Assembly (NCBI RefSeq): GCF_040954835.1
Contig: NC_090706.1
Coordinates: forward strand, 32,125,148 to 32,189,147
Origin: Lepisosteus oculatus
Lineage: Eukaryota; Chordata; Actinopteri; Semionotiformes; Lepisosteidae
Length of the DNA: 64,000 nt
Direction: 5' to 3'
Shown: piece after piece, positions 6,392-64,000 of the stretch
Position numbering within the stretch: the first letter of the stretch is position 1
How the letters are laid out: every line of letters begins with the position of its first letter
Position numbers and translations under genes: made by a program
Notes under the pieces: generated by a model
Seen by the model: only the letters and a program-made list of their open reading frames with translations
What the model was told of the DNA's origin: nothing
Databases searched by the model: none

Positions 6392-9300
6392 ATGGATTCT
6401 GGAGACGTAAGTAGTTATACAAATTTTATAACTCTTTGTTTTATATTACACAATCTGGTTTATGCAATCCGGACTTGAAAAGTGCCTTATTTTGGAGAGA
6501 ATTGCAAAAATAAAGATTCCCTCATGTTATATCTTTAAAGATAGGTGCTTTTCAGAAATTATTACAGACTGTGGAATTTCTTTGATTCTGAGGCTGGGCT
6601 CAACTTGCTTTACTAAAGCTCTTTTCTGACAGTTCTGACAGTTCAGGGTGTATAAATTTAACTAAGTAATACTAAACGTCTGAGGATGGTCAGTGTTAAA
6701 CCCCAATACAACTTGCTGGAGATAGGAAATGATTTGAGAGTGGCTAAACATATATTGACATAGGAACAAGTAATAGGTTTATTCCATGCTGAAAAAAAGA
6801 AGAAAGAGAACACAACGTTTCGGCCGTGGAGCCTTCTTCAGGTGTGAAGAAGGCTCCACGGCCGAAACGTTGTGTTCTCTTTCTCCTTTTTTTCAGCATG
6901 GAATAAACCTATTACTCGTTCCTTTGCAGCCTACGCATCCTGACGCAGCTCCCCACCTGAACATATATTGACATATTTTTGTTCTCAGAGTTCCAAGGAT
7001 GTTGCTGTGCGAGTGGGTGTGATATTTACACAGAAGACAGGTAAAAGTGTTATTATTATTATTATTAAAATAACTTGTTGTCTATAGTGTATTTTTCCTT
7101 CTGGTGCCATTTAGGGAGTCAAGTTAAGATGATTTGTAAGACAGAAGCAGGTAAAATGTTATTTCTTAACAATACCACTGGGTTATTTTTTGTTCCATTG
7201 TGACAAAATATTAATTTTAGTTAATGTATAATTAACCTGTGTGTGAATGATTAGGAATATAGTAAATGGCAATATTATGAATCCAGTGAGCATTTAAGAT
7301 TCTGGCAGATAAACATAAAACCTGGTGCAGAAAATCATTATTTTATAATTCCACATTGCATGTACTGTATTGTAGACGTAAATACTGTATAAAAAACATG
7401 TATTTGACACTACGAGGACAGGTTTAGAACATCTAGGGTTCCAGAGACAATGATAATTGAAAAACATTACAGCTGACAAATGACTATTCTCAGGAAAAGC
7501 AGGCAACAATGCCTGAAACAACAATATCTGTGTGCCTCAACCTATTTCAGAAATATTTTGAAAAATCCCATGGTAAATATTGAAAGCACTTGTAGCTTTT
7601 CTTAAAACTTTTTTTTAGGAAATGAAAAAAACAAGCTACGACTAACTTTAAATGAAGATGAAAACTGTGTGATTTATTGTCAAGGGGAAAGCAAGGTAAG
7701 AAATACATGATTGCTATAGGATGAAATAACATTCTGTTACTTGTATAGACTTTTCTGAAGAATGAGGAGAGTGTGTTACAATGTACTTTAAAGTCTGAAG
7801 CAGGATATAATTTAAATGTATAGTATAAGAACATTAATTGAGTAATATATAATTTATACTGTATGTGGAGTAAGAATACTATCCCACTTGTGGCCTTCCG
7901 CTGTTATTGAGGTCAATTCAGTATTTGCTACTGGTGACTCTTAGGTACACAATATCTCAACTCAAACCTCTGTCTTCCTTGGTGCAGGACTCATCCTGTA
8001 ATCTATGCATTTTTGTTTCCCTTTTAACAATTATGTTGTGTGGCCATTTTTCAGCGTTGATACAGCATCATCACCTATGTTTTTGTAGGAATGTGCCTTT
8101 TCGTTTGATGCTGTTGTGAACCATAACAGTGCACAGGTAAGAAATTTAAACAAAATGTGTTGCTAAAGTATGTTTAATTAGAACTCCACAGATGTACATT
8201 TGTATGGATTTTTACCCTATAATTTAGATTTGATAACAATTTGAGTTCATACTGGTTTTAGGAGAAACTTTACCCTGAGCTCCTGCTACCTCTGGTGCCA
8301 TTGGTGGTGTCTGGTTACAGTTGGAATGTGCTGGTGGCAGGTACGCACAGATCAGGGAAAGAGAATATCCTGTGCGGACAAGTGATTGTCAGACAGGTAA
8401 TATAATAATAATAATAAACTTTATTTTATATAGCGCCTTTAAAGGTGGCTTCTCAAAGCGCTTTACAGGATGACAATAACAATAAATAAATAAAGTAAAG
8501 TTTATTAACAACCCCTTTTACTGTTCCCCTTGTATTTTATTTTTCAGAACTTTTCAGGGAGTTTCAAAGTTATTTTGGGACAATGAAAAACGTTCTTTCA
8601 TTGCCTCATGAGAGATCTATTTCAAAGTGATTGCTTTGTCAAGTTTCTCATTGTTTGTCTTTACCTAATGAAGTGCAAATCAAACAGTGCACTTTATCAA
8701 CTCAGCCATGGCAACCAATCAGGTCAGCAATGAATGGGAAAGCTACGACTAGATTCTGAAATTCCATCATAGAATAACAGCAATAACATAACTGATGTTT
8801 GTGATAGATAATCTACAGGACTTGAGAAGCCATATGGAGATATAAATGAAACTGTTTGTCTTATTTTAGCTGATTGAAGATTTTTTCAATGAATTAAACA
8901 AGATGACAGATGGGGAATGGTTTACAACAGTGTCCTTTGTACAGGTAAATCAAATACAAATCTACCTCTACATTTGATTGCTTGTGCTTTATTCTCTTTA
9001 TCCCCTCTTTGGGGAATAAATACTCTTTGAATCCATTATATATAAGACTTAAAGATCACACTGACTGCAAATTAACACGGAGGAAAACAGTACAGTGGAC
9101 AAATCAAAATAAGATACTGCATAGTGATGGTAAATCAAACACACTTTTTTTAGTTACTGTATTACGGACTTTGATTTTTATTTTGTAGTTAAGACAATAA
9201 TGTGGTGTTGTGTTTGTTTTGTTGCTTTGTTTGCATTCAATACACCACAGTTTTACCCTGATGACACTGCAGTTGATCTCTTATATCCACAAAACCGGGA

Positions 9301-12300
9301 TCTGAAGCCTGTGACTCACCCAGTACTGGGAATGTGAGTGGAGAACTCCAACCAATACACTGATTCCTTACAATGTTGAATTTTTCTTCTTCCCAAAGAA
9401 GTTTAAAACAAATTAAAAGTAGATTCAAAGACAGTTTATCTTCATCAACTACAATAAATCATGCCACAAAATGCATTTTTCACCACCTCTGGTCCGGGCT
9501 ATGGAATAACCTACTGATACTGACTGTTCTTTTTTTAGTGTTATAGATAATGTGTGTGAAATTGTAGTGCAGACTCCGGGAGATGCCTGGAAACTGTATG
9601 ACGAAGGCAGGGAAACACAAAAAGCCACCACTGGGAATTTGATCAGCAGGTCAGTCACAAAATCCTTCTGCATACTGTATTAGTGAGGTATTTGGTCAGT
9701 TGAGACAAAATTCATCTGAGATTTTGGATTTTGAAATTCTGTATCAATGATCTTTCACAAAGGATGTGTAGTTAAAATTCCTTGATATCACAGCATTTAA
9801 ATCATTTACTGTAGACAAACTAGCATGCGTAAACAGGCACACATTCACAGTTTAGTCTCAGTTTGAGTATGAATGTGTCTTTATAATTTTTTCTTCCCTA
9901 GGTGTAGCTCCCTTTATTCCATCAGTGCTGAGAAGAGGCTCCGGTCTGACAGTGAATGTGCAGAATACAGTCTCTCCAGATTGCAGGTCTTTGATCTTGC
10001 TGGTGGGGCATTCAGGAATGATCTGAATGGGTGGGTACTGGACCATATGGCAGAGTTTTGTTGGCTTTATTCCTTTAGAATGACCTGGTTTTCCTGGAAT
10101 ATTTTAATTCTAAAGGATTAGCCCCCTGCTGAAAGTCTTGGACCAATCGGAGTCTCGTTCCACACCTTCTGACAGTCTGCTGCCTGTTGTATTGACTTCA
10201 GCACTTCATGGAAATTGCTACAATGTTCTTCTGTACTGTATTAAGCCACAGGGTGAGTATCAGGAGAAGCATTATGATACTGAAGGAGAGAGAATGGTAT
10301 GGTAACCGACAGGTAGCAAAGTCCTTTGGATGAGATGTGGTCATTAAAAATCCCAGAGCAGTTCTAGAAAAGAGTAGGGGTGCTTCCCTAATGTCCCGGC
10401 CAAATTTCCCTTCGGCCTTTCCCAAACATGGTCTCCTAATAGTCCCCATCTCTCAATTGGCTATGAATTGTTCTCCTCCTCACTGATAGCTGATGCGTGA
10501 TGAGCGTACCATCGCATCATCCAGGTGGAGAAATCACATTGTTGGTGTTGGAGGGGAGTCTCTATTACCTGGAGTGTCCAGAAAAGAGCTGTATAAGTTT
10601 AAGGAATTATGAGTCATTATTATTAAATTTTTCAAAGAAAGAAACCAGTTCAAAACAGAACATTTTCCTTTGATAGAAATTCTGTCTAATTACCATGTTT
10701 TTTTATTCCTCTTGTTTACATGCTCCATTTTCTTTTGATTATCCTTTTAATTAAGAAAACATCCTCTCAATCTGGCTCATTGACTCATAGCGGGTGTCGA
10801 TTACATTTACATTATTACTGCTTAAAAAACGGAAAACCTGTTTTTGTTCATTCTTTTTTCTTTGGCATAAAGTTTTAAACACCCCGTATCAATATTACTA
10901 GGAACTATGGCGCCAGGAAGGAAGTGTTTTGAAAGACAATGGTGTTTAGATTTCAAACCCCCAAGCCTTTGGTGTGCATTACTGTAGGCCTGGTGGATGA
11001 AGAGACCCCCTGGGCTCTGGAACTGGCTCACAGGGTGAGAGGCCTGACAACAAGGGTGTCTCCCGGGCACTGGAGTCCTCAAAGGACCACTCACAGGTTG
11101 CGGACAGTCATCAGGGAGCTGAGGAACAGCATAGTTTTACAGGGGGAGAGTGGAGATGATGAAACAAGAGAGCTGGCTGGACTCATTAAAACACTGCAGG
11201 TAAGGGAAAAACTGTAGTCAAAGTAACACTGGAGAATACATTTCAGGCTCTTGTGCACATTTCTGACATGGGAGTTGTGGGTCAATTAACCGTAAGTTAG
11301 CAGGAAACTCAAATGGTACTTTTTCACTTAGTGTGAAGTCATTTGTTCCAACGCAGAATGAAAATAAGAGAATCAGAGTAGTTTAAGAATGGCAGTGACT
11401 AACAGCAGCTTCTACTTTTTTCTAACATGTTAATTAAAAGAAAGGGACAAAGAGATACTGTCTTTCAAAAGGGGCCTTTAAAAAAGTCAAAGATGGAAAT
11501 GTTAGCCCCTTTAATCTCCCTTTTGTGCTTCGTGATCAGGTTGTCAAGAACCAGGATTGGGAGAAAAAAAGAGAAAAATCAAAAGAGAATGAAGAAAAAC
11601 GAAAGGTTTGCTTTTCAAATTTTTATTTTCCTCCCATCACAACGTGTTTTAATATTATTGTCGTTTCCAAATGGACATGAATAAAATGCGGCCAAATTCC
11701 TTTTTGGGTTGGGCTCTATTTAGGAACAAATAACAGCCAGTCATGGACTCCCTGAAATATAGTAATCAGCTATTTAATATCAAAGGAAATTTAGAAAGAA
11801 CATGTTTCATTGAAACTTTTGAAAATAGATGATAATTTGATGGAACAGTCAGCTAAAACATATAGGTATGCTTTTGTTTTCATTTTTGATAAGAAGGAAG
11901 AAATCATATATTTAACAATATACCTGCTTACACCATTCAACAAACATTATTTAAACATTACTACCTAATCTCATAGTAAAACAACTTAGTGAAGGCACAG
12001 CCTTTCTTAGTCATTTAAATAAAGGGCTTGTTACCGAACTGTGTGTGTTCTGCTGCTGAGGCAGAGCTGTGCAGTCAAATCCTCTGATGTGGGGACGCTA
12101 TCCCATGGTGCTCCTCAGCTGAGGGATATCCAGGAGAAGATTAGGCAGCTTCAGGAGCAGTTGAAGAAGGAGATGGAAGAACATCTGAGAGGTAAATGAG
12201 TATCTACATTGCAAAAGCCTTCTTACTGCAATGGTATGTGAGTCACAGTGATCTGCTGAGATCTTGTTAGTGTTGGATGTTATTGATTTATTTTCTGGAG

Positions 12301-15300
12301 GTGCATTCATCTGTTTATGTTTTTGGAGACCTAGAATTCCTCTGAATTATTGTTCCAAATGTAATCATAAGATCTAAAATATATTAAACTAAATGAATGT
12401 ATAATTATACACAATGCTGCTATAATCCTGGAATACTGAAAGAAACCCTTAAAGTTACCAAGATTCCATTTCTTTTGGGGTACCTCTTGGCCAATTAGTG
12501 AGAATTCCTAAGTAAAAATTTCTCTCTCACCTCTAAAAAAGACTTAACTGTAACTATAATCCAAAACCCAAACCAGCCTGTCCTTAAATTGATCTCAGTT
12601 TCTTTATACTGATAGTCAGTAGCCACTGGATAATTTGTAATGGTTTTTAAATACTGTGCAACACTGAAAGACTGCCCACCTGGGATTTCTGTTTAATTAC
12701 ATGTCATCATTGTGATTCATCTATGAAGAGAAAATGTAAATGATTCAAAAGGGGTATCAGGCTGTCTGCAATGCAATGAAGAGTTTATACAGAAAGAAGC
12801 AAGGCAGGATTTCAGCTTGACCTCCACCACAGATGGGAAGGTTACTGTTGACAAGAACCAGGAGAGAGTGGGCAGGATCCAGGAGCTGAGGGAAGCCATC
12901 AGAGAGGAGCAGAGGAAGCGCAAAAATGCTGATCAGGGGTCAGGCCATCTACAGCATTGCAATGACCAGGTATCTAATGCCCTCTTCCCTTGGACTATTT
13001 TATAAGAAAGTGTTTGATGGAGATTATGCAATACTTGGCCAAACAGCATTACCATTGCTGGTTTCATCCTGAAATGTCTCCATTTGGATTACATGGCAAA
13101 GCCCTTGTATCTCACTGTATGACCTTGGCCCACTGACATGGTTTATTTCCATGTTTTATATAACTACTGTGAGAAAGGCATACGGCAGCAACATCCAAAT
13201 ATAAAGATGCAGCACATTCTTTCATCCCATAAAGTAGCCTTTTCAAGGTTTTCATCTTCGCAAAAGCAGGAGATTTCAAGTAACTTTCAAAATGTAGTAG
13301 TAAAAACAAAATAGAAAATGAAAGAATTCAAATTAAAGGTTACTATCTCGAGGAAGGGAATAAAAACCAGTAGGTGAAGGGGTAGTCTCCATGGTCTTGT
13401 TTTTGGCAGCCCTGAATTAAAGGCTAGTATAGAAAATACTGAAAGATAATCTCTAAAAATTAACAGATGGAAAGCATATAATTTTCTAATAATTGCCTTG
13501 CAGTGTAAATATGACGTAGTATGAAGAATATGATTCCTATGCGCAGATACAAACAATAAAAGAAAACTGAACAAATACTTTTGTTTCACCCTTCAGAAAT
13601 AGTCTACCGTAATAACTGGGCTAAATTATTACCTTTAGTATTAAGCTTCTTAGATTTGTTTTAAATTGTCAACAACTCATTTTCTGTTAGGCAAATGATT
13701 CTTGTGACAAAATGTCTGACGCGGAGCTGGAATATAGCCAGGCTCTGAACAGGAGGAGACGACTGAAGGAGGAACATGGTGATCTAATTCACAAGGAACT
13801 GCTGAAGATGGAACAGGAGCTGGAGGCTGAGAAGGTGACAGGGATGTTCAGTGTGCATGTTAGTGGACACTCCTTAGGAAACAATTAAAGGGGAACTGCA
13901 ACGTTATTTTTACATTTCGGGGGTTAGAAAGAATCATCATTGATGAGTGCATTTCAAACCACAATAAAAGTAAAAGGTCCACAGTAAGTTGTAAAACCTT
14001 CAATTTACGTCACAAAATTGAGAAACTTTCCAAGTATGTGCAGTGCCATATTCTGAGATTCAGAACAAGGCAACCAAACATCTGGTGATTTGATGCAGCT
14101 CTGTCTGTTACATTGTAGGCAGCAGGGAGAGCGCCTCCTGCTGGCCCCACTTACACCTCTTCCAGCAGCAACCTTAGCTTTCCCAGGAGATCTCCCACCC
14201 AGGCACTGGCCAGGCTCACACCTGCTGCGCTTCAGTGGCTTGCCAGTTGTGAGTTACAGGGTGATATAGCAGCTGGTTTTGAACCAGCTTGCAAAAGCAT
14301 GAGTCCTGAGGGTTGCTGTCTCTGTCATGTGCAGGACGAAGGCCAGGCCGTGGAGGTGCGGCGCTTGGACAGAGAGCGGGAGATCCTGGTGTTGCAGCTG
14401 GAGGCACTACGGAGAGAGAAGGCCGAGGCAGAGAAAGACCTGGAGGCTTACCACCACAGACGCATTCAGGAAATGGACTCACTCCAGGCAGAGAGCCTTC
14501 AGGTCAGCAGGTGTCAGAACACCCGAGTGTTTTGCAGTTATCTGTCCAAGAAAAGATAGATAGAAGACCTATCCCTTCTAATAGATTAAAATTAAACACT
14601 ACAAGGATCTACAGTTTTAACCTGTTTTACAGGGATTTAATCCCTTATAAACCAATAAACTGGGGGAAGCCTAAACAGTGAAGTTTAGAGAAGATACGTT
14701 TCTGTCTTATGTTTCTAATGTATTTTTTATTATTATGTAAATGTAAGACACAACAAGGATAGTTTTCAGTTGTTTGGTTGGCATGCTGTCAATTTGGATT
14801 AAATCCTGATTACAAACTACAGTATGTTTGCTTAAACCGGTTCCTGCATTTAGGTTTTTCGAGCCTTTCGAGAGGTTTTTGAGGACCAGGTAGAGACCCT
14901 GGAGAAGCGCTATCGTGGCCTGTTGCTGGAGGTCATTCAGGACGCAGTGTACCTATCAACTAGGAACCAGGAGCTGGAGGCAGAGAACAAGCAGCTCGAA
15001 CAGGGTGAGACAAGTCAAAGAGGCCGTAACACTTTTTAAGGGTAGAAAATTTCAACATGTAGAGAATACTAACCAAAAAAAGATTTCAGCATGCTTCCTG
15101 TCTTTCGGTAGATTTAGTATGATTTGTTACAGAAGGCTTACAGAATTTTATAATGTGAATCCAGGAATGAGTCTTAAATCACAGCAGTGTATAATTTGCA
15201 CAAACTACACATGTAGCTTGATGGCTGTACTTGTGTTGTGAATTATTATTATTTGTATTCTTCTTCTTTCTTGTTAGTACTGTAAAATATTCCTTCTGAA

Positions 15301-15495
15301 AAAAGCACAGGTGATGGTGCTAACCATGATCCTATAGCGTGATGAACATGGCCTTTTTTACTGAGGATTTACTGGAGTAACTTCAGGTTTTCTATTTTTA
15401 TTCACTTAGCACTGGCAAAACACAGAGATGCTCTTACTGTTGAGAGAGGCCTTAGGAGAGCCCAGCAACATCACCGGGAAACTGCCTCACTGTGA
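6392..15495 (+). CDS. Divergent kinesin-motor-like protein with C-terminal coiled coils (19 coding exons, 694 aa)
   Basis: Coding exons: 6392-6406, 6989-7040, 7115-7150, 7619-7695, 8089-8136, 8262-8396, 8870-8944, 9251-9333, 9539-9649, 9902-10030, 10122-10252, 10988-11199, 11540-11605, 12065-12191, 12731-12969, 13691-13834, 14335-14502, 14854-15004, 15410-15495. All splice phases agree, giving one 694-residue frame with MDSGD as the first codons and TGA at 15493. Residues about 1-320 follow the kinesin motor order. SGYSWNVLVAGTHRSGKE (P-loop, about 93-110) stands for GYNGT-xx-AYGQTGSGKT, ISRCSSLYSI (about 209-218) for the SSRSH switch I, LQVFDLAGG (about 240-248) for DLAGSE, and ALHGNCYNVLLYCIKP for the ALGGN-xx-CxSP strand. 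The catalytic Thr of the P-loop is Glu, SSRSH is lost and DLAGSE ends GGA, so ATP-driven movement is doubtful. Residues about 370-694 are rich in E/K/Q/R heptads, hence coiled coil. I do not recognise a named family member, and the start codon is the least certain point. Confidence 0.75.
6763..6960 (+). mobile_element. Short palindromic retroelement insertion with 15-bp target-site duplication
   Basis: Two 78-bp arms (6763-6840 and 6845-6922) are inverted repeats with about two mismatches around a 4-base centre. An unpaired tail (6923-6960) follows, ending CCCACCTGA. The insertion is flanked by identical ACATATATTGACATA at 6748-6762 and 6961-6975. Single-arm relatives lie at 46696 and 59866. 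Fixed 3' end, variable 5' end, long duplications and no poly(A) suggest a retroelement of Penelope-like type; the class is inference. It sits in intron 1 of the kinesin-like gene. Confidence 0.75.
8401..8495 (-). repeat. SINE 3' tail fragment
   Basis: (AAT)n followed by ACTTTATTTTATATAGCGCC and CTCAAAGCGCTTTACAGG. This is the inverted tail shared by the window's SINE families, here right after the donor site of exon 6 of the kinesin-like gene. Confidence 0.6.
10320..10625 (+). repeat. SINE3-like copy, 5' truncated
   Basis: Shares the SINE3 order: GGTCATTAAAAATCCCAGAGC, CCCGGCCAAATTTCCCTTCGG, TGATAGCTGATGCGTGATGAG, CATCATCCAGGTGGAG, GGAGGGGAGTC and GTGTCCAGAAAAGAGCTGTA, with an ATT-rich end. 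It lies in the intron after exon 11 of the kinesin-like gene. Confidence 0.65.
14100..14285 (-). repeat. SINE3-like 5S-derived head
   Basis: Reads as the reverse complement of the family's 5S-like head. It has CTTCCAGCAGCAACCTTAGC, AGATCTCCCACCCAGGCACT and GGCCAGGCTCA, then CAGTTGTGAGTTACAGGGTG and ATATAGCAGCTGG, which resembles the 5S internal region. It ends about 50 bp before the acceptor of kinesin-like exon 17 (14335). Confidence 0.65.
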
Positions 15496-15952: not shown

Positions 15953-15958
15953 AATAAA
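15953..15958 (+). terminator. Candidate polyadenylation signal of the kinesin-like gene
   Basis: AATAAA 458 nt after the TGA, followed by a T-rich stretch with TTTGTTTTATTCC. It is the first clear signal on the + strand after the stop. Confidence 0.45.
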
Positions 15959-17497: not shown

Positions 17498-18469
17498 TTA
17501 AGCATGGTAGTACAAGTAAATGGCCAGACCAATCAATACAACTGAGACAAAGAAAAGAGGTGTGAGCTGGAGACTGAATAGGGAAACAGAAAGCACTGCG
17601 TTCACAAGCATGGAGCAAGAAATGACAAAGAGGCGTGTGATGTTACTACTGTGTTTCATGACAAGGGACATGAACAGGCCATTCAGTGCCTGAGTTGTCA
17701 CAATCAGCCAAACCACCCAAGAATACCCCTCAAAGAACCCAGGGCCAGCATTGGTAAAGTGGGCACAGCAATTCACTGCCACTCCAAACACATAGAGAAA
17801 GAGATTCTGTAAGTTCAGTGGCAGTCGCTGAGTCTTCAGAATAAGCTCAGTGTAGACAGCAGCCAAGCCAGACACAAAGCAGTATGAGAGAACTAAAACA
17901 AGACCCAGGACACTGATATGAAACTGTGTTCCTACTACAGCTTCCCCTTTTTCTTCCTCAGTGTGATCCAAGCTGCTGTATGTATGGCACACTCCAGCCA
18001 TCATAAGCAAACAGACTGCCCACCACTGGACTGGCAGTAGGTGTTTGTTTAGAAAGAGGCTATACAGCAGGGCAGTGGAGATAATCTTCAGGTTGCTCAA
18101 GACTTGGAATGTGCTAGGATCCATGTAGAGCTGCATATAGACCACCAAATTATTATTGATTGCGTACAGCACTGCTGGAAAGGCATAAGGAACCATGTGG
18201 CCCCAGGAAAGAGTGACTTGTAGGGAGTGCAAATCCTGGATCAATAGCAGCCCCAAGGAGATCAAGAGCTTGGTTACCTCAATCAGCACCACACAGGATG
18301 AGGGGCTAAAGGGGACTTTACCATCGACTTTACAAAGCGTAATCAGGGGGGCATGAGAGCCATAGATAAAGACAGAAAAAACAAGAAGGAATAGCCATCC
18401 AGTTTGTGTGAACCTGCTTTTTTGCTGAGTAGAGACATCCAAAGATCTCACTTTTTTAATCACAATCAT
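17498..18469 (-). CDS. slc35a4: SLC35A4, nucleotide-sugar transporter family protein
   Basis: One uninterrupted 323-codon frame, close to the 324 residues of human SLC35A4. The SLC35A family comprises Golgi nucleotide-sugar antiporters with ten membrane helices. For A4, transport of CDP-ribitol has been proposed, so the substrate here is inference. The protein starts MIVIKKVRSLD with a short cytosolic head. Hydrophobic helices follow, starting with TGWLFLLVFSVFIYG. Family landmarks include VLIEVTKLLISL, LYAINNNLVVYMQLYMDPS and FQVLSNLKIISTALLY in the first half, and TQALNGLFMSLVMKHSSNI and GLAIYLYYHA in the second. The start codon has A at -3. This ORF lies about 980 nt downstream of the microprotein ORF on the same strand, so initiation after a long leader is expected. 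Neighbour APBB3 is also its neighbour in human 5q31. Confidence 0.95.
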   Translation of the reverse strand: MIVIKKVRSLDVSTQQKSRFTQTGWLFLLVFSVFIYGSHAPLITLCKVDGKVPFSPSSCVVLIEVTKLLISLGLLLIQDLHSLQVTLSWGHMVPYAFPAVLYAINNNLVVYMQLYMDPSTFQVLSNLKIISTALLYSLFLNKHLLPVQWWAVCLLMMAGVCHTYSSLDHTEEEKGEAVVGTQFHISVLGLVLVLSYCFVSGLAAVYTELILKTQRLPLNLQNLFLYVFGVAVNCCAHFTNAGPGFFEGYSWVVWLIVTTQALNGLFMSLVMKHSSNITRLFVISCSMLVNAVLSVSLFSLQLTPLFFVSVVLIGLAIYLYYHA

Positions 18470-19448
18470 TTTTAGAAGTCAGTATACACATCCACACTAC
18501 CTATAAAACACTGTGATAGTGGTTTCAACCAGTTAAGGCTTAATATTTTTTTCTTCAGCATAAGCTTCCATAATACCAAAATACTGATAATCTAAACATG
18601 CACTCAACCCAGTAGAAGGAGTCTTTAAGACCTTTAGCTAGCCTTTAAGACCTTTTAAGTTAAAAAGGTGGGTTTGATTGAGAACTTACTACAGCAGTAA
18701 AACAAACTTGTTTAGACTTTTTGCACTGTTCTTTGCATCTCAGTTATTAACCATGTCTCATTAGAAAAAACAAAACCCAGTAGCCCCGCTAACTGGCTGA
18801 CGCCATGTAACAAAAACATACAAATCCTGACTTGTGTAAAGAAATGAGCTTGACAAAATGGAAAGTTCAATTACCATTACACAGTAAAAGCCTTTTGAAA
18901 CTCCCCAGTGTGCAACAATTCGTTTGTAAAGTCTTATGAGATGATCTATTCAATCTGCTTTGTACTTTTGTCCAGCTATTCAAAACAGTGATTCCAATAA
19001 CAAACCAACATTGCTGCTCCCCTGTACAGAAGTTAGATTCATGATAAATTAGGCTGCACTGGGCAACATCTTTAAGGCAATTCAATTCTTAAAAGTCAAA
19101 CCACCCAAACTGTATTCTTGCATAAGCACTTTAAAAAAGTTCTTACAAAGGAATTAACATAGGTCTAAATTATTGCCCTGTAGAAGAACTATTGCACTTT
19201 CTGAAGATCAGCTTTACAGTATGATTTGGACCCTGATTTCTAAGTTTTTGCCATGCATTAGCCCACAAAGCTTCCATGCTGTGCCCTAGAATGGACTGCA
19301 CCCCTCCAAGTAATATATCAAAGCATTATTCAGTTTGAAGGAAATAGAAAACAGGTGTCCTCCAGAAATAACTTTGGTTGGGGACCCTTTCTGGAGTGGA
19401 GGAAAAGGCATGGCATGTGCCAGCCCTCTGCAGAAGGACCTCTCCTGG
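18470..19448 (-). other. Inter-cistron leader between microprotein and SLC35A4 ORFs
   Basis: This stretch, which would be mRNA sequence between the two ORFs, is AT-rich. I saw no repeat and no convincing splice acceptor just before the SLC35A4 ATG, so the two ORFs are probably in one exon. How ribosomes reach the second ORF (leaky scanning, reinitiation or an alternative promoter) is not visible. Confidence 0.5.
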
Positions 19449-61700: not shown

Positions 61701-64000
61701 AATAAATAAAAAGAAGAAAAATAAAACTGAGCAGGAAACATATGAATATTCAATATGTCTATTCATATTATAAGATTACTCTTTTTACAGTGCTTTTTAA
61801 GAAATTGAGAAAGATGTGAATAGGCTTTCTTTCTTAACCTAACAAGCTATGACACTAAATGAACACAATCTCAACATGAACAACCATAATGTTCCTTCCA
61901 TTTCATTTTGTATGTTTGAATCTATGTATTTATGAAGTTGCCTCTTTTCTTTATCAAACCCCATGTACTCCCATTAAATATTGTTATAATTTAGAATAAA
62001 ACAGGACAAAAAGGTGTAACTTGATTGCCAATTTGAGGCAAAATATGCCGAATTCTTTTGAGAAATGTGCAGTACAGTATTTTCTACATGTTGCAAGGAG
62101 AAATGTAGGAAAAATGCAAGGTTCAGACCCACTACAGTATTTACCAAAATGTTTAGATCAATATTCACATATATTCATTCTTAACTCAGTTTCAGTTCAG
62201 TTATCCTTGATCTTCATTTGTTCAGGTTGCAAAACCTCTCTTCAATAAAAGACTGATCACTTAATCATATCTTCAAGGATTTACAGTAGAGTGGCAATTT
62301 TCATATAAAGCCACAGATGACAAAAAAAAAATCCAGAATTCAACGGAGAGATTAGATCTCACACCATCCCGATTTAATGCAAACCTCTCATTTTGAAGTT
62401 ACCATGCTGTTATAACCTTCTAGAGGTGACCTTATTTCAAAGGAGGTTAAAAAACATGTACTGTATGGCAGCTACTTCGACACACAGGAAGCAGCTCAAA
62501 GGCAGAGAGAAGCTTTCAGCAAACAGTTTACTCACATAACCTCACAACATTTGAAATTAAAATCTCAGGCACACTGAAAATAAGTGTTTCACTGTATGAA
62601 AAGGTTACGATTTCCTAAGGCTTTTGGTATTACACAGGTCTGTAATGATTAGGAAAATCATGGTGAGAATTTAGCCATCAAAGCCTTACCATTGGTAACT
62701 TTGAGATGTACTGTGTGTGTTGTTTCTATTTGATGTAGATTATACACCACACACTGGTACAACCCCTCATCTTGGTGATGGATATCTTTGATGATAATGG
62801 AGAAGTGAGGTTGCTTAATTTTCCTGGACTGAAAACTTATCCTCTTTGCGTCTTGTTTTACGATCAGCTTTTCTGTGGCTGTGTAGGTGATGAGCAGCTG
62901 GTTACACGTTGTATCGGAGCATCTGTACCATGAAACTCCAGCATCAGGGTTTGCATTCCAAAACCTGGTCCCTACTTCACAAGGGAGCTGAACTGTAGAT
63001 CCAGCTGTGCAACTGATTTCAACTACATCTGTTGAAAAAAATAAGGAGCAAGGATAACACAGATGTTAAAAATAAAAATCTAAACTATTTTCCATGAAAC
63101 TGAAGGTTTTTGTCCATACTGCATTTGACGCTATTCCTGAAAGCTGGCTGAAGATACCAGGTAAATTATATGATTTCATTAGTTTATTAAGTAGTATTTA
63201 TTTATTATTGACACATAAGGTTTAGTGGGTGCTTGGAGTCAGCAGAGAGCTAATTTAAAATCTATTTCTGTTTTCCTTACAATGACACAATACCGTACTT
63301 GAACTGTCAGTGATGATTACAGTGCAATTTCAGATCCATGAAGCACATTAAAAGCTTATTTTTCATAATAAAAATATAATTAAGGAAAAATAATGATTTT
63401 TGAGTCATTTGTGCTTTCAATTAATTTTGTATAGGATGTGGGGACAAACATTTTCCTAATTTGTTATACTGTAGATCTACTGCATATTTTGTTAATGTAT
63501 TCGGAGTAGAAAATGCTTTTAAAATGCCATAAAACAATTTGTAAAATTAATTTAGGGAATGTGTTCTTTACTTTTGCTTTACTGTAATTTTAGATGTGTT
63601 TAATGTTTAAATGACCTTAAGTAAAGAAGAAACGTCACTAATATACAGTAGTATCTGTTGGATTTAATTATCAGGAAAAGTAGATATAAATAAATTAGCA
63701 TATGAAGCAATTCTTTATAAACATGATGTGAACTAAACAACATTGTGAATCTGACAAATGCTTATATTGTAAAATATATGAAGTGCAATAAAGCAAGCAA
63801 AATTAAATTGAAAAATACTTAACACCTGTAGATATTTCACATATTGTACATAAATTATTCAGAGAAGGGATAAAATCCAGATATGTTAAAATACTTTTTT
63901 TTTACATTTTAAAATTACTTTGTATGATTATCTGTTCTTACCTGAGACATGCTGACAGACTGTCTGGTGATGAACTAATATTAAAAAACACAAAATCACT
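58725..64000 (-). CDS. One-IgV-domain type I membrane receptor with ITIM (5' end outside window)
   Basis: Six coding exons on the minus strand: 63942-64000 (signal peptide, incomplete), 62690-63028 (Ig), 61490-61691 (stalk and membrane), 60505-60605, 59209-59277 and 58725-58765 with TAG. All phases agree. The signal peptide core is VILCFLILV. The Ig domain has STVQLPC, the core Trp in VSWYRC and the DEGLYQC hallmark; a further CSDTTC pair could form an extra disulfide. After a stalk of about 37 residues, TVTITALCVTSIFLGPLLFFF spans the membrane, followed by WKYRQHQQR. The tail carries IYAEVF, EDYESV and VHYEML. The last fits the ITIM rule (V-x-Y-x-x-L), so an inhibitory signal through SH2 phosphatases is inferred. 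The closest general types are CD300/TREM-like, PD-1/BTLA-like or fish novel immune receptors, but I cannot assign a family. The last exon (DVYSDCNQSFGIR) is short and less certain. Confidence 0.75.
59866..59985 (+). mobile_element. Short retroelement copy with 12-bp target duplication
   Basis: Third member of the 6763/46696 family: GAAGAAGGATCCACGGCTGA, AACATTGTGTTTTCTTTC, TTTTCAGCATGGAATGAACC, TACCCACCTGAA. The flanks CTAAATGTATCA (59854-59865) and CTAAATGTTTCA (59986-59997) differ at one base. It lies in an intron of the Ig receptor gene, in the opposite orientation. Confidence 0.7.

Follow-up and report, generated by a model that had tools for sequence, protein, structure and literature searches.

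Can a gene discard the residues by which a kinesin hydrolyses ATP and holds the microtubule and still be kept as a gene, and what would its product then do? This question is raised by a locus at positions 6392-15495 (+) of the window, namely, the whole stretch of 64,000 nucleotides analysed here from Lepisosteus oculatus (contig NC_090706.1), where the predicted protein carries a kinesin-like head with an altered P-loop, switch I, and switch II. To our knowledge, non-motile kinesins are few, and a kinesin without its nucleotide and microtubule elements but with the core kept would show the worth of the motor fold without motion.

The gene model and its coding evidence

The gene at 6392-15495 is composed of 18 exons with every join GT-AG and in phase, which gives 2025 nucleotides encoding 674 amino acids with no internal stop and a single terminal one. 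All of the gene's features given below are on the plus strand. Exons 1-6 are located at 6392-6406, 6989-7040, 7619-7695, 8089-8136, 8262-8396, and 8870-8944; exons 7-12 at 9251-9333, 9539-9649, 9902-10030, 10116-10252, 10988-11199, and 11540-11605; and exons 13-18 at 12065-12191, 12761-12969, 13691-13834, 14335-14502, 14854-15004, and 15410-15495. In-frame stops are present upstream of the ATG, and a candidate polyadenylation signal (15953-15958) is the sole AATAAA in the 1 kb past the stop. Two optional segments keep the frame: namely, a 12-residue (36-nt) exon with AG/GT borders between exons 2 and 3 (7115-7150), and an 8-residue extension of exon 15 (13835-13858), which ends at a GT donor 24 nt later. 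When both are included, we reach the in-phase form of 19 exons and 694 residues that had been described in the first-pass annotation; the 674- and 694-residue forms may both be regarded as candidate splice forms.

Codon-position asymmetry was 0.042 in the coding sequence, whereas none of the 2000 samples drawn from the introns exceeded 0.0041, and the G+C content was 49% versus 35% in the introns. Random sequence with the same dinucleotides would hold about 34 stops per 675 codons (minimum of 17 in 300 simulations), and the remaining five frames of the joined exons contain 19 to 44. Because the exons of our model were picked for open frames, nonetheless, the stop count is biased, and we hence place most weight on the Pfam Kinesin score as the less biased proof. 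Indeed, the Kinesin profile (PF00225) matches the 674-residue protein at 82.9 bits (E of 2.6e-23), far above the cut-off of 29.3, with residues 44-305 aligned on positions 35-325 of the 327-position profile; for two intact paralogues, the scores are 415 and 419 bits. A chance assembly of exons as the source of the open frame is ruled out by this score and the codon statistics, and the gene is real. Furthermore, the open frame of 18 exons, the codon periodicity, and the hydrophobic core described below suggest that it is probably constrained, in line with the earlier view of an intact and functional gene.

When residues 1-310 were searched against PDB sequences, 131 distinct sequences were hit at E up to 10, and the best 60 of the 131 were kinesins, led by Plasmodium kinesin-8 (5e-20) and followed by KIF4 (6e-14) and CENP-E (1.6e-13). 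From the Pfam profile and these PDB chains, the kinesin head is assigned to approximately residues 6-309, which are encoded by exons 2 to part of 11 (6989-11052). The protein had been considered to belong to no recognised family at first pass; this no longer holds for the kinesin superfamily, in which the Pfam score places it, but does hold for the subfamily, which neither the tree nor the approximately unbiased (AU) tests described below could settle. No family was hit in the NCBIfam search. The gene's exons were also absent from the matches when the entire genome was searched exon by exon for the Kinesin family (with 122 of 259 candidates scored), because they are singly too divergent. A match to Pfam Microtub_bd is uninformative, since three ordinary kinesin sequences match that profile better.

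Two introns carry elements of their own. In intron 1, a near-perfect hairpin with two 82-nt arms, 96% complementary and 4 nt apart (6759-6926), may be a folded-back mobile element; in intron 15, the minus strand at 14160-14277 matches the 5S rRNA family at 38.7 bits (gathering score, 38) and is perhaps a 5S-derived SINE and not a 5S gene.

Motor motifs and fold core of the head

The head was compared with 30 further motors encoded in this genome after alignment to a profile made from its kinesins; among those 30, the rows with sequence at the motif, which we call readable, numbered 28 for the P-loop, 28 for SSRSH, and 27 for DLAG[ST]E. Family names of these loci (KIF3-, KIF18-, KIF19-like, etc.) were assigned by recognition of sequence signatures and are presumptive. 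The P-loop consensus G....GK[ST], intact in all 28 readable motors, is replaced in our protein by GTHRSGKE (residues 91-98, exon 5, 8340-8363), in which GK is retained. In switch I, ISRCS (residues 197-201, 9642-9908, split by intron 8 at 9650-9901) takes the place of SSRSH, which is intact in 27 of the 28, and the loop ahead of it is shortened. Switch II reads DLAGGA (residues 230-235, exon 9, 9993-10010), while DLAG[ST]E is found in 26 of the 27. The first-pass annotation had reported the altered P-loop and DLAGGA exactly as we find them, and the kinesin-like order and spacing of the three motifs agree with ours in the 674-residue numbering. It had also taken SSRSH to be lost; the motif is certainly altered, but two of its letters, S and R, are kept. 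Apart from this gene, the KIF20-like locus L023 (G000 C6:49231000-49239500) was noticed to have SSRRY for SSRSH, which is probably an artefact of script assembly because the site is at an exon edge.

The changes extend to the microtubule side of the head. In loop 11 and the start of helix alpha4, 16 of 20 profile columns (238-257) are gapped, and this deletion, located across exons 9 and 10 (10008-10150), is new here, beyond the motif losses noted before. A missed exon that would restore loop 11 is unlikely, because intron 9 at the deletion site is only 85 nt long. Locus L035 likewise has 20 gaps in the loop 11 segment, but these arise because its row is incomplete. By eye, loop 12 is read as P-SDSLLPV versus [YF]R....T in the 28 readable motors, and the N-terminal RxRP motif, ahead of where the alignment begins, as RVGV.

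In kinesins, the Ser/Thr of the P-loop coordinates Mg, the Glu of switch II pairs with the Arg of switch I for hydrolysis, and loop 11, helix alpha4, and loop 12 make the main contacts with tubulin. Because the residues for all three tasks are altered or deleted, catalysis and strong microtubule binding are predicted to be lost; we thus infer a head that would neither hydrolyse ATP nor walk, with weak microtubule binding if any. The head may still bind microtubules via other surfaces.

The interior of the head, in contrast, appears to be retained. Taking the columns with a hydrophobic residue in 85% or more of the other motors, we find our protein hydrophobic at 67 of 73, versus 56 of 212 among the other aligned columns (binomial p of 2e-18). 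At the 71 positions where the 30 other motors show conservation of 80% or more, our protein has the same residue in 32 and a deletion in 7. Given the 67 hydrophobic columns that stay hydrophobic, which is an indirect sign of selection, the protein looks to have been selected for its fold and not for its chemistry.

Possible roles of a head predicted not to walk

The head is followed by a charged tail of 365 residues (310-674, 11053-15495), which is rich in Glu (14.5%), Arg (11.2%), and also Gln, and poor in Pro (0.8%). A heptad period of 3.5 is strongest at residues 341-424 and 461-544 and not elsewhere; the windows across residues 481-624 peak near 2.7 and some others near 3.7. The composition and period would thus be those of a partly coiled-coil-like tail, and a PDB sequence search with the tail gave no match.

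Taken together, a functional pseudo-motor is the reading that we favour and consider probable: a non-motile kinesin head joined to a charged tail, which would serve as a passive partner or, like KIF26/VAB-8 or Costal-2, as a scaffold. Substitution has removed the Ser/Thr of the P-loop, part of switch I, and the Glu of switch II, and deletion, as seen in the alignment, most of the segment from loop 11 into alpha4, while the hydrophobic core of the kinesin fold was kept; the head would then serve for passive interactions, with dimerisation or partner binding left to the tail.

Costal-2 of Drosophila is a non-motile kinesin-like scaffold related to KIF7. By analogy, our gene might act in the same way, but it differs in that its affinity to kinesin-4 finds no support in either the tree or the AU tests. 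KIF26A/B, which serves as the precedent among vertebrates, and VAB-8 of C. elegans have a kinesin-homologous head that is thought to be without ATPase activity, according to the available part of the source (PMC13228590); in the available part of another (PMC5590807), no statement on ATPase was found. In the gar genome, the KIF26-like locus L026 (G000 C8:18180500-18188000) resembles our gene in an altered switch II (DLGSCE) and in 5 gapped columns of loop 11, but its loss is milder: SGKT is present in the P-loop segment and YRDSKLT at loop 12, and our gene has 16 gapped columns.

Instead of a scaffold, the protein might be a passive heterodimer partner, the tail of which would pair the head with a catalytic kinesin, whose motility would change as a result. 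There is a precedent in yeast: as described in the accessible text of PMC4338441, the motor homology domain of Vik1 and Cik1 contains a microtubule site but not the elements needed for ATP binding and hydrolysis, and it acts as a foothold for Kar3, a kinesin-14. A head with no recognisable ATP site and a charged tail would fit such a partner, and the absence of the ATP-site elements is as we predict here from sequence. Nonetheless, so far as that text goes, Vik1 and Cik1 still possess the microtubule site and carry their head C-terminally, whereas in our protein the microtubule surface seems lost and the head is N-terminal. Any sequence relation to Vik1/Cik1 was judged by Pfam Microtub_bd alone. 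Because loop 11 and alpha4 are mostly deleted, a foothold is less likely than a scaffold, and we regard this alternative as rather unlikely.

More doubtful still is a former motor drifting under relaxed constraint in this lineage, with its frame open by chance or recency. A branch as long as the one seen here (3.2 substitutions per site) and changes at positions fixed in other motors would be expected of such a gene, but the absence of a stop across 18 exons, the 67 of 73 hydrophobic columns retained, and a codon periodicity ten times that of the top intron sample argue against it. It is very improbable that wrong splice choices in our model created the motif losses, as the two optional segments and the intron within switch I might suggest, given that the P-loop and DLAGGA each lie within a single exon and that the deletion site has just 85 nt of intron.

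Copy number, origin, and surroundings

Searching the 1.2-Gb assembly in six frames (E up to 0.01) gave 17 matches, 15 of which fall on exons of the gene itself; the other two are KIF3-like sequences with identities of 23 and 24%. No close paralogue was thus found within this search; a recent duplicate is rejected, and the gene is single copy within the search.

The subfamily of this pseudo-motor candidate was then sought with the 30 other motors, whose rows were assembled exon by exon by a script, many being incomplete. By eye, the 130 matches of the exon-by-exon search correspond to about 48 kinesin genes, about 17 of which are not in the tree. Loci L001-L008 were omitted as overlapping copies, and L038 as too short with 89 columns. 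In the tree, the branch of 3.2 substitutions per site is placed by kinesin-3 with a support of 40, and the 15 nearest rows are 22-27% identical to our head, the median among the other motors being 40%. In AU tests of 17 constraints, only KIF12 (0.042), KIF24 (0.007), and KIF19 alone (0.007) were rejected as sisters; a clade with KIF26 was not rejected (0.546), as was the case for most families tested. Neither the tree nor the AU tests, nor the intron positions or the phmmer and blastp scores, point to a single kinesin family.

A divergent kinesin-8 on the KIF18/KIF19 side, with its motor function lost, is conceivable as the origin, and this would be compatible with the above readings on function. 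The best PDB matches are those to Plasmodium kinesin-8 (5e-20, versus 6e-14 for KIF4), but yeast Kip3 and KIF19 (5gsz) score under KIF4, CENP-E, and kinesin-1 in the same search, and KIF17-, KIF7/27-, and KIF3-like rows outscore KIF19 in phmmer and blastp. The letters TQxxTxxN ahead of switch I are otherwise present only in KIF18- and KIF19-like rows among the rows listed; they align with kinesin-8 in phmmer but are two columns off in the profile alignment, and the motor motifs are intact at those loci. Two introns match the KIF19-like gene in position and phase (P of 0.009 for any one gene sharing two), but two of eight intron positions being common to any gene in the set is not unusual (P of 0.115); one of them is also found in KIF4- and KIF18-like rows and the other in a kinesin-14 row. 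The table of intron positions behind these values omits four low-scoring introns (one of L015, two of L023, and one of L026). In the AU tests, a clade with the KIF18, KIF19, and KIF24 rows reached 0.375, but the value fell to 0.051 without KIF24 and to 0.061 with KIF18 alone; KIF19 alone was rejected as described above, and the free tree, with its position by kinesin-3, gives no support for the grouping. The lead to kinesin-8 is hence weak, and we hold such an origin to be tentative.

Also with some hesitation, we consider it possible that the gene represents an old and separate vertebrate class of kinesins, in which the ATP site and the microtubule element were discarded, the fold was kept, and the head was turned into a protein-interaction domain; its absence from mammals would then explain why it was missed by a human-based catalogue of kinesins. 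Among the matches listed in a literature search, none was about such a gene, which may nonetheless have been annotated already. If orthologues confirm the loss of both elements with the core kept, one more vertebrate cytoskeletal gene, missing from human-centred lists, would be added.

The gene had been placed between CD74 and SLC35A4, and the flanking sequences agree with this. On the left, a thyroglobulin type-1 exon (3-158, +; Pfam, 6.8e-20) has MHC invariant chain as its best match after multi-repeat thyroglobulins and saxiphilins, in keeping with the final portion of a CD74-like gene. On the right, an open reading frame at 17498-18478 (-) is matched by Pfam as a nucleotide-sugar transporter and is consistent with SLC35A4. 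The CD74-SLC35A4 interval is thus a plausible location of the gene. Farther along the window, an immunoglobulin V-set exon is found at 62658-63065 (-; Pfam, 7.3e-14).
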